From Vreelandella zhuhanensis (GTDB lineage Bacteria > Pseudomonadota > Gammaproteobacteria > Pseudomonadales > Halomonadaceae), in contig NZ_WTKP01000004.1 of the NCBI RefSeq assembly GCF_009793355.1, forward strand, positions 1-64,000: DNA of 64,000 nt, written 5' to 3'. The notes beneath the pieces are model-generated. The model was not told where the DNA came from and did not search any database. It saw nothing but the letters and a program-made list of their open reading frames with translations. This document shows positions 46,269 to 48,224 of this stretch, in pieces. The position numbers were made by a program, and so were the translations under genes. The first letter of the stretch is position 1, and each line of letters opens with the position of its first letter.

Positions 46269-48224
46269 ATGCAGCCAATCCCTGGTCCTCTTTCGACAGA
46301 CCACCCTCTAGTTCTACGGCTGAAGCGACACTCGCGAGTGTTATTGACCGGCCCTTCCGGCAGCGGCAAGACCACCCTTGCCCGAGCTGCCGCAGCCAGC
46401 CTCGTCGATCAGAACCTACCTTGCTACTGCCTGAGCGCCGACCCCGGCCTGCCCGGTTTCGGCCCGCCCGGAGCGCTGTGCCTGGGAAAATGGCAGCAGG
46501 ATGAACATGGCGCAGGTGACTGGCAGCTCAAGAAAATGGCAGCCTTGGCGACACTCGACGCTTCGCGCTTCCGGTTGCCGTTGATCGAGGCACTGCGCCA
46601 CCTCTGTGCCTCCTTGGCCGAAGCTCCCTTGATCGTCGACGCACCCGGTGTAGCACGAGGCATTGGTGGCGCCGAACTGCTGCCGGCACTTGTCAGTGCG
46701 GGGCACATCGATACCTTGGTCAAGCTGAAACCCAGTGATGCTCCCGATACACTCAGCCAGGAATATCGCGCTCTGGTCATCGAGCAATTGACACTCACCC
46801 CCGACCCCCAGGCGCAGCATCCGGGCAAGCAATTGCGCACTCAACGCCGCACCCAGGCCTGGGACGCTTATCTGTCCGACGCCACCGAGCAGAGTATCGA
46901 GCTTTCGCACCTGGCCGTGATCGGCACACCACCCCCGCGCAGCGCCACCGATGCCTGGCGTGGCCGACAGCTCGGCTTACTCGATGCCCAAGGCAATACA
47001 CTGGCCCTGGGCGAGGTCATTGAGCTTCGGGACGGCAGGCTGCACTTTCTAACCCCAGCCCTTGAGCAGCCTCCCCGCACCCTAGTGGTCCGCGATGCGC
47101 AACGCCGTCGCAATGGCCAGCTAGGCACCGCTCGACCTTACCGGACACCTCAGCCAGCGTCGACTATTGAGCCGGCCATGGTGCTCCCCCCACTCGACGC
47201 GCAAAGCGGGCCGCGTCCGACGGTGCGTCTCAATGACTGCATAGCAACGTTGATGAACGGGGCTTACGGTGACCCTTTGCTGCATTTACGCATACGGCAC
47301 CAAAAGCGCAGCCTGCTTTTCGATCTGGGCGACCCTGGCCGCTTGACATCGCGCCTCGCCCACCAAGTGAGCGATGTGTTTATCAGCCATGCGCATATCG
47401 ATCACATTGGCGGTTTTCTCTGGCTACTGCGCTCGCGAATTGGGGACTTTCCCGCCTGCCGATTTTACGGCCCGCCCGGCCTTGCCGAGCACTTGGCCGG
47501 GCTGGTGCGCGGGGTACTTTGGGACAGGGTGGCCGACAGGGCGCCACGCTTTGAAATCCAGGAACTTCATGGGGACACCCTCAAGCGTTATTTGTTGACC
47601 GCCGGTCAAGCGCTGACAGCACTTCCCGCCCGCCCGGCCCGAGATGGCGTATTGCTCGAAGAACGCGAGTTTCGGGTACGCGCCACGACGCTCGATCACG
47701 GCACGCCAGTGCTGGCGTTCGCTTTCGAACCCCAAACCCAGCTAAAAGTGCGCAAAGAGCGACTTGAAGCCCATGGCTTGGCACCGGGGCCTTGGCTGGG
47801 CGAACTCAAGCACCACGTTCGAGCAGGCAACAGCGATACCCGGATGACCCTGCCCAATGGCGAGACTGCACCGATAGAAGCGCTGTCCCAAGCCTTGCTG
47901 TTTACCGAGCCAGCTAAACGGTTGGTGTACGCCACCGACCTGGGCGACACCGAAGATAACCGCAAGCGTTTGATTACCCTGGCTAGAAATGCTCATGTGC
48001 TATTCTGCGAGGCGCCCTTTCGTGAAGATGAAGCCGACCAGGCCAAGCGTACCGGCCACCTGACCGCTCGCGCCTGCGGCGAAATAGCCACCGCCGCAGG
48101 TGTCGGCCAGCTAGTACCCTTTCATTTCTCGCGGCGCCACGCCAACGATGCTGAAACGCTTTATGCCGAGATCAGGCCCTATTTCCCCCGCCTGGCCGAG
48201 ACGCTTGGCCACGAGCCGGACTGA
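46269..48224 (+). CDS. Fusion of Clp1/Grc3-like polynucleotide kinase and RNase Z-like metallo-beta-lactamase
   Basis: 651 residues. Residues 20-160 look like the Clp1/Grc3 kinase core: Walker [10 protein letters not shown] (28-36), [13 protein letters not shown] (56-68), equivalent to the D-x-G-Q...PPG segment of that family with Leu in place of Gln, and [14 protein letters not shown] (121-134), equivalent to its NTxGW-G-G region. A linker follows (about 185-315). Residues 318-651 look like RNase [14 protein letters not shown], the zinc motif HAHIDH (374-379), [20 protein letters not shown] and PFHFSRRH near the end. AAGGAG seven bases ahead fixes ATG 46269. The gene diverges from dapB and converges on dnaJ. 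Inferred role: RNA cleavage plus 5'-hydroxyl phosphorylation. I know of no characterised enzyme with this layout; domain calls are by eye. Confidence 0.82.

Follow-up and report, generated by a model that had tools for sequence, protein, structure and literature searches.

RNA kinases of the Clp1/Grc3/Nol9 type (PF16575) and metallo-beta-lactamase (MBL) nucleases of the RNase Z type are the described proteins closest to the gene considered here, which occupies positions 46,269..48,224 (+ strand, stop codon included) of a 64,000-nucleotide stretch of Vreelandella zhuhanensis contig NZ_WTKP01000004.1 (the window) and joins a half of each type in one chain. In eukaryotes, Clp1 has MBL nucleases at its side when mRNA 3' ends are processed, and the tRNA splicing nuclease is another of its partners. 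In Las1-Grc3, a nuclease and a 5'-OH kinase act together to prepare RNA for exonucleases, Las1 being a HEPN nuclease on a separate chain. T4 Pnkp carries two end-healing activities in one protein, with a phosphatase rather than an MBL nuclease. Bacterial Clp1 is called "extremely rare" (14 of 1,543 bacterial species) in the accessible text of PMC6777427, which also mentions 149 bacterial UniProtKB sequences and 39 proteobacterial species; some of these may be fusions such as the one described below.

Judging from its sequence, the V. zhuhanensis protein is neither a canonical Clp1 kinase, two of the kinase motifs being absent, nor a canonical RNase Z, though it may well work like them. Both halves are known folds; their joining, the distribution of the fusion and its link to the Rtc RNA-repair operon (RtcB, RtcA, archease), with which it shares a neighbourhood at some loci and co-occurs outside Halomonadaceae, appear new, and the protein is probably an undescribed enzyme. 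No description of the fusion, its spread or its Rtc link was found in the open-access literature, mostly judged by title, with subscription papers outside the scope. The RNA repair survey of Burroughs and Aravind (2016) may list related architectures. In the accessible text of the Rtc operon paper PMC7790460, neither Clp1 nor RNase Z is named.

Architecture and predicted structure

The gene is a single open reading frame (ORF) of 651 residues containing every motif quoted in an earlier sequence-only reading of the window. That reading had proposed a Clp1/Grc3-type P-loop domain fused to an RNase-Z-type MBL domain, and ORF, profile searches and predicted structure agree on this architecture. 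The Clp1-like half (residues 1-285; 46,269..47,123; this and all other features of the gene lie on the + strand) comprises an N-terminal part, a P-loop kinase core and a C-terminal beta domain. Residues 28-203 match CLP1_P (PF16575) with 49.9 bits against a gathering cut-off of 26.6, which places the half in the Pfam family to which the reading had pointed. A linker (residues 286-319; 47,124..47,225), partly of low confidence, with a predicted local distance difference test (pLDDT) score below 50 at residues 295-297, leads to the RNase-Z-like MBL half (residues 320-645; 47,226..48,203), which matches Lactamase_B_2 with 57.9 bits against a cut-off of 27. Of the 49 aligned family members (window protein included), all 49 match Lactamase_B_2 and 48 match CLP1_P at E <= 0.001. 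Profiles and predicted structure together delimit the Clp1-like portion to residues 2-281 and the RNase-Z-like portion to residues 324-645.

The AlphaFold2 model, built from the alignment of 49 sequences, has a mean pLDDT of 91.9 and a predicted template modelling score (pTM) of 0.60, so that each half is well predicted and the relative placement of the two is tentative. In a structure search of the PDB, the best matches of the N-terminal half are Clp1 and Grc3 structures: residues 2-280 align with human CLP1 (PDB ID: 8hmy) with Z 25.9 and a root-mean-square deviation of 2.8 over 264 aligned residues, followed by Caenorhabditis elegans Clp1 (PDB ID: 4ohw, Z 25.7) and Grc3 (PDB ID: 8puw, Z 22.6). 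As the match spans residues 2-281, the half corresponds to an entire Clp1, more than a P-loop. The best matches of the C-terminal half are RNase Z structures (PDB ID: 1y44, Z 27.8 for residues 324-645), among them the tRNA complexes 2fk6 and 4gcw (both Z 27.4; aligned residues, 279 and 280 of 307, respectively). The Clp1/Grc3 and RNase Z folds predicted for the two halves are thus those expected from the letters. Structures of Las1-Grc3 and CLP1-TSEN are also among the PDB matches. When the kinase half alone was searched against PDB profiles, chains of Midasin and RecA ranked first, with scores that are sums over the repeated P-loops of one chain, each of them weak in the alignments shown; Grc3 and Clp1 follow in lower rows, mixed with ArsA and AAA ATPases. 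Because of these mixed P-loop matches, the identity of the kinase half is less clear from its sequence alone than from its structure.

Conserved residues of the kinase half

Residue conservation was counted in 75 full-length sequences that align across both halves (window protein included, near-copies retained). The Walker A segment (residues 28-36; 46,350..46,376), GPSGSGKT in the window protein, conforms to GxxxxGK[S/T], with Gly28 present in 75/75 and Lys34 in 73/75. The counterpart of the Walker B, or DxGQ, motif is DPGLP (residues 58-62; 46,440..46,454), in which Asp58 is kept in 74/75 and the Gln is replaced by Leu61; this position is occupied by Ser (32), Leu (30), Met (4), Thr (3), Gln (2), Ala (2), Asn (1) and Arg (1). 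DAPGVARG (residues 124-131; 46,638..46,661) corresponds to the clasp motif [T/S/L]xGW without its Trp, Pro126 and Gly127 being present in 75/75. The lid motif RxxxxR is represented by a lid-like R190-x3-R194 (46,836..46,850), where the strict spacing is not matched and two near-invariant arginines (75/75 and 74/75, respectively) lie one residue closer together.

The fusion therefore shares with the Clp1/Grc3/Nol9 kinases, including the stand-alone bacterial Ts-Clp1, the fold of the whole half (Z 20-26), Walker A, the Walker B Asp and the two lid arginines; it differs in having mostly Ser or Leu for the Gln, no clasp Trp, a lid shorter by one residue and an attached nuclease. The motif definitions, including [D/E]hhQ for the Gln-containing motif, are those in the accessible text of PMC6777427, according to which the bacterial Ts-Clp1 is active despite a deviating lid. 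With the Gln present in only 2/75 and no clasp Trp, the kinase activity of the fusion stays putative. The caveat attached to the Gln-to-Leu replacement in the sequence-only reading was right and extends to the family as a whole.

Two other Halomonadaceae genomes encode stand-alone Clp1-like proteins (L242:2359-3342 in G109 and L243:3126-4082 in G090) with a conventional DPGQ, which score 89 and 101 bits against CLP1_P, respectively; like the fusion, the G109 protein is without the clasp Trp (TSGL).

The nuclease half and its relation to RNase Z

The MBL half retains motif II, HxHxDH, as HAHIDH (residues 374-379; 47,388..47,405), together with His477 (47,697..47,699), Asp557 (47,937..47,939) and His619 within HFSRRH (48,123..48,125), all of which we take to be metal ligands. 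The seven residues concerned (His374, His376, Asp378, His379, His477, Asp557 and His619) are invariant in 75/75. The same holds for each residue of HLT (residues 597-599; 48,057..48,065), the counterpart of the HST loop of RNase Z. In the alignment with RNase BN and ELAC1, PGPWLGELK (residues 506-514; 47,784..47,810) corresponds to the GP motif, which in RNase Z belongs to the tRNA-binding arm; Gly507 is kept in 74/75, Trp509 in 75/75 and Lys514 in 74/75. For this putative exosite arm, PGPW..xLK is kept and the tRNA-complex structures align as given above.

Fold and metal ligands are thus common to the nuclease half and to RNase Z, RNase BN and ELAC1, and to this extent the proposed RNase Z identity stands. 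It does not extend further: the PxKxRN loop of RNase Z (P.[KR].RN) was found in 0/75 sequences, the score against the RNase Z equivalog TIGR02651 (103.8 bits) is below the cut-off of 292.95, and long branches separate the two groups. The RNase Z motifs HEAT and HST become CEAxF or CESxF and HLT, respectively, in the fusions.

The nearest NCBIfam family is NF002558 (PRK02126 "ribonuclease Z"), which the nuclease half matches with 276.1 bits, below the cut-off of 315; the five fusions scanned range from 256.8 to 280.2 bits, all below it, whereas two stand-alone PRK02126 relatives exceed it with 429 and 423 bits. PRK02126 proteins differ from the fusion in being stand-alone and about 335 residues long. 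In the tree of nuclease halves they form their own clade of 13 (support 100/100; one row is mislabelled as a fusion), and a branch with support 96/98 sets apart 15 canonical RNase Z sequences, at a great distance from both the fusions and the PRK02126 type. By sequence, the nuclease half is therefore related to PRK02126 and well apart from canonical RNase Z. Four nuclease-only members (L113, L118, L120 and L032) are nested among the fusions, a pattern suggesting that certain lineages have lost the kinase. The tree labels are uncorrected: L210 is tagged as a fusion for its long open frame, the gene beginning just before the nuclease, contig ends truncate L070, L204 and L205, and a run of N interrupts L117, so the number of changes counted on the tree is too high.

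Distribution and selection

The fusion was found in 26 of 201 Halomonadaceae genomes: in one piece in 24, across two contigs in G020 and cut at a contig end in G161. A further genome, G060, has only the nuclease half, beside dapB, and is excluded from the 26. Among named genomes (the best 80 of 122 relatives), carriers belong to Halomonas, Billgrantia, Litchfieldella, Vreelandella rituensis, Methylobacter, Thiodiazotropha, Nitrococcus, Photobacterium and Marinobacter, the nearest relative being that of V. rituensis (88% identical). Further relatives come from many metagenome-assembled genomes (MAGs) of Chromatiales and Ectothiorhodospiraceae and from MAGs labelled Desulfobacterium, Desulforhopalus, Desulfococcus and Acidobacteria, labels that may be wrong.

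In a sample of 350 gammaproteobacterial genomes (the class sample), the full fusion is present in 12, including the window genome and three genomes that are only 75-78% complete, and 19 others match by the nuclease half alone (E <= 1e-30). Three of these 19 (G768, G791 and G542) have the match at contig ends and maybe represent cut fusions (RtcA 0/3, RtcB 3/3); G618 is partial. The 31 positives are spread over 24 families, and two class-sample loci, L197 and L200, recur in the named set. The genome searches scored the first 6 candidates per genome in the search for Halomonadaceae fusions, 4 in the search that gave G338 and 3 in the class sample, which makes absences uncertain.

Both halves are under purifying selection. 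Between the window protein and that of V. rituensis, the ratio of nonsynonymous to synonymous substitution rates (dN/dS) is 0.13 for the kinase and 0.15 for the nuclease half; over the seven pairs compared it is 0.13-0.32 for the kinase (six pairs, dS being saturated in the seventh) and 0.06-0.25 for the nuclease. The family thus combines a Clp1-type P-loop kinase fold, in which some of the catalytic residues remain, with an RNase-Z-type nuclease fold that has the full set of metal ligands and counterparts of the HST loop and of the base of the tRNA-binding arm, each half being maintained by selection.

In Marinobacter and relatives (L094, L096, L102, L118-L120), the kinase half is diverging or, in L118-L120, missing. 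One Marinobacter species pair has 45% identity in the kinase and 77% in the nuclease half, and Asp58 is lost in M. mobilis (L102).

Association with RtcA and RtcB

In lineages other than Halomonadaceae, RtcA and RtcB are associated with the gene statistically and often physically. In the class sample, RtcA occurs in 6/12 fusion genomes, 9/19 nuclease-only genomes and 16/319 other genomes (p 3e-5 and 8e-7, ignoring phylogeny), and RtcB in 9/12, 17/19 and 16/49, respectively, the 49 controls being drawn from the 319 negatives (p 0.01 and 2e-5, likewise ignoring phylogeny). Stand-alone PRK02126 proteins resemble the fusion in this respect, as nuclease-only genomes are enriched in both genes. RtcA was also found in 17 of the 46 genomes reached via named fusion loci outside Halomonadaceae.

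The location of the gene varies outside Halomonadaceae. Of the 49 loci there, 9 have RtcA or RtcB, once as a remnant (L095), in their flanks (48 loci are from named records, plus L116; many flanks are shorter than 5 kb, and L058 and L059 share sequence). RtcA is found in L056, L060, L062 and L085, confirmed by Pfam in the last three and identified by tblastn in L056; RtcB is found in L071, L091, L093 and L113, confirmed by Pfam in L071 and L093 and identified by tblastn in the others. L085, L091, L093 and L095 are all from Photobacterium. Where the genes are co-directional, the gap to the fusion is 4 bp in L085 (RtcA), 55 bp in L093 (RtcB) and 59 bp in L060 (RtcA); in G525, a gap of 34 bp separates the gene from an RtcA gene upstream in the same orientation. 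In L071, archease and then RtcB precede the fusion, and in L113, RtcB stands beside a nuclease-only relative and, by eye, next to an archease-like ORF. When the flanking ORFs of the 49 loci were clustered, close relatives retained, families other than Rtc recurred in 6 loci at most.

Just upstream of the fusion of Photobacterium alginatilyticum, an RtcB remnant is present (L095:4675-4839; 55 residues matched by tblastn), and RtcB is whole in two relatives. In the two loci that share sequence, the fusion is preceded, at a distance of 18 bp and in the same orientation, by a gene for a DUF6763 protein (L058:3346-3654 and L059:4602-4910). Downstream of the fusion and RtcA in L060 lies a gene for a protein of about 95 residues without a Pfam match (L060:4796-5086); a protein encoded beside a nuclease-only PRK02126 gene (L207:2562-2843) is about 31% identical to it (E about 1e-14).

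Relation to canonical RNase Z genes

Canonical RNase Z was counted in 74/201 Halomonadaceae genomes at a threshold of at least 184 bits against TIGR02651, a count that omits broken or partial copies (e.g., G113, G082 and G038), short fragments and a group at about 75-103 bits whose matches are confined to the model's first half; the cut-off of TIGR02651 itself is passed by the RNase Z copies of 0/201 genomes. At the thresholds used, 25 genomes have the fusion only, 73 canonical RNase Z only, one both and 102, including G060, neither (p 4.5e-5, ignoring phylogeny). This exclusion partly follows genus boundaries. Separate RNase Z genes, whose presence beside the fusion the sequence-only reading had left to be checked, are thus found in 1/26 fusion-bearing Halomonadaceae, the single case being the window genome itself. 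Its canonical RNase Z (G000:C7:25532-26443; L003:862-1824) scores 268 bits against TIGR02651, below the cut-off, and passes NF000801 with 259.5 bits against a cut-off of 252.

In the window genome, 57 tRNA genes were found, and CCA follows every one, directly behind the match in 56 and two bases further in one; the genome thus has no need of a classical RNase Z for making CCA-less ends.

Possible function

RNase-Z-type cleavage leaves a 5'-phosphate and a 3'-OH. The product of the nuclease half would thus already carry a 5'-phosphate and have no need of the kinase, and the suggestion that the protein cuts an RNA and then phosphorylates the new 5' end is unlikely as it was worded. The kinase more likely acts on 5'-OH ends left by other RNases. 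The reading we prefer, held with slightly less than even confidence, is that the fusion is a single-chain processor of broken RNA ends. Its substrates would be the pieces with 5'-OH and 2',3'-cyclic-phosphate ends that metal-independent RNases and toxins produce, and the RNA would probably be tRNA or tRNA-like, held via the RNase-Z arm. The kinase half would phosphorylate the 5'-OH end, and the nuclease half would trim the damaged 3' end to a 3'-OH usable by the CCA-adding enzyme or by exonucleases. Such a two-ended healing enzyme would do a job comparable to that of T4 Pnkp with other folds. The short animal RNase Z ELAC1 is reported to repair tRNAs cleaved in ribosome quality control, a precedent for RNase Z in end repair. 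RtcA and RtcB act on ends of the 5'-OH type, according to the accessible text of PMC7790460. Since the nuclease-only relatives are also linked to Rtc, the nuclease probably has a part of its own in RNA repair.

A more specific form of this proposal is doubtful: that two-ended healing, with Clp1-type 5'-phosphates and RNase-Z-like removal of 2',3'-cyclic phosphates on broken tRNAs, makes the fusion an unrecognised partner of Rtc, which in Halomonadaceae would operate mostly Rtc-free. The repair of cleaved RNA that had been suggested from the letters is in keeping with the linkage to RtcA and RtcB in other lineages and finds no such link in the genome of the window.

Several observations weigh against RNA end healing by both halves. 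Walker A is the one motif, among the four published for the kinases, that is matched strictly; the clasp Trp is found in 0/75 sequences, with APGV or similar in its place, and kinase motif residues are lost in 3/75. Six pairs have a finite dS in both halves; in each of them the kinase is the less identical half, and in five (the window-V. rituensis pair excepted) its dN/dS exceeds that of the nuclease. Nuclease-only relatives exist as well (L098, L113, L118-L120). The co-occurrence tests ignore kinship. No Rtc gene was found in the flanks of 40/49 loci, some of them short, and no RtcA in 29/46 fusion genomes outside Halomonadaceae; within Halomonadaceae, RtcA was found in 0/201 and RtcB in 8/201 genomes, and neither was found in the window genome, where the fusion protein thus cannot depend on Rtc. 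Finally, 5'-phosphorylation would block RtcB, because RtcB requires a 5'-OH (accessible text of PMC13247085).

The last point can be turned into a different, unlikely explanation, argued by analogy with Clp1 opposing RTCB in insect cells and with Las1-Grc3, in which the kinase would phosphorylate 5'-OH fragments precisely so that RtcB cannot rejoin them, leaving them to nucleases that sense 5'-phosphates, and the nuclease half would cut RNA. Besides the 5'-OH requirement, this explanation can draw on the increase of RTCB ligation upon CLP1 silencing in insect cells (reported in the same accessible text of PMC13247085) and on the excess of RtcB in fusion genomes (9/12 against 16/49 controls), and it would suit Halomonadaceae, which have the kinase-nuclease and mostly lack RtcB. 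However, the nuclease-only relatives share the Rtc link (RtcA in 9/19), so that the kinase alone is not its source, and no recurrent nuclease appears among the immediate non-Rtc neighbours, read by eye and mostly without family search.

Rather unlikely, too, is ordinary tRNA 3' processing by a plain RNase Z, with the Clp1 half as an ATP-dependent RNA-binding or regulatory module devoid of kinase activity, as yeast Clp1 is reported to be. The kinase motifs of the fusion deviate, its nuclease half is the better conserved one, and the coexistence of fusion and canonical RNase Z in only 1/26 fusion genomes looks as if they replaced each other. Yet the single genome with both is the window's own, 102/201 Halomonadaceae genomes showed neither, and the exclusion, partly bound to genera, is a statistic that ignores phylogeny. 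Also contrary to it are the CCA encoded by all 57 tRNA genes found, the absence of PxKxRN and the retention of the kinase Lys, Asp and two Arg in 73-75 of 75 sequences.

That the fusion results from a faulty gene model, or from two frames joined by accident, has next to no probability and is already refuted by these data: one seeming split (G338) and one gene without the kinase half at the same site (G060) occur in related genomes, but the break in G338 is a run of 10 N, both halves lie in one frame in 75 full-length sequences and the AlphaFold2 model reaches the mean pLDDT of 91.9. The same run of N rules out G338 as a "Rosetta stone", i.e., a kinase and a nuclease encoded by adjacent genes. 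A defence or phage protein was considered and rejected, as the PADLOC and PHROGs matches are weak and of P-loop or hydrolase type.

Genomic setting in Halomonadaceae

In the window, the gene lies between divergent dapB (45,305..46,123, - strand, start at 46,123) and convergent dnaJ (48,297..49,448, - strand, stop at 48,297), names that we take from the earlier reading and from recognition of the proteins. A Shine-Dalgarno-like AAGGAG (46,258..46,263) is located 5 nt 5' of the ATG at 46,269, a start that agrees with the homologues; an alternative in-frame ATG at 46,122 falls within the start of dapB. A promoter scan at the gene found none, and the terminator-like sites number 3 against a mean of 2.3 in shuffles, about chance level.

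Among 32 named Halomonadaceae loci, dapB is upstream in 29 (one of which, L098, is nuclease-only), and in the remaining three (L070, L090 and L100) a contig end falls inside the gene. dnaJ is within the fetched stretch of 23 of the 32 loci, mostly not directly adjacent. The description of the gene as sitting alone between dapB and dnaJ thus holds for the window and does not carry over to all relatives.

Implications

Set against the reported rarity of Clp1 in bacteria, a fused form occurs in 12/350 sampled gammaproteobacterial genomes, the window genome among them. As eukaryotic Clp1 and MBL nucleases work side by side, a Clp1-like and an MBL half on one bacterial chain offer a simple system for asking what such a pair does. 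The Rtc link, shared by the fusion and its nuclease-only relatives, may indicate a missing step in Rtc repair, and it gives the PRK02126 "ribonuclease Z" proteins a testable function.

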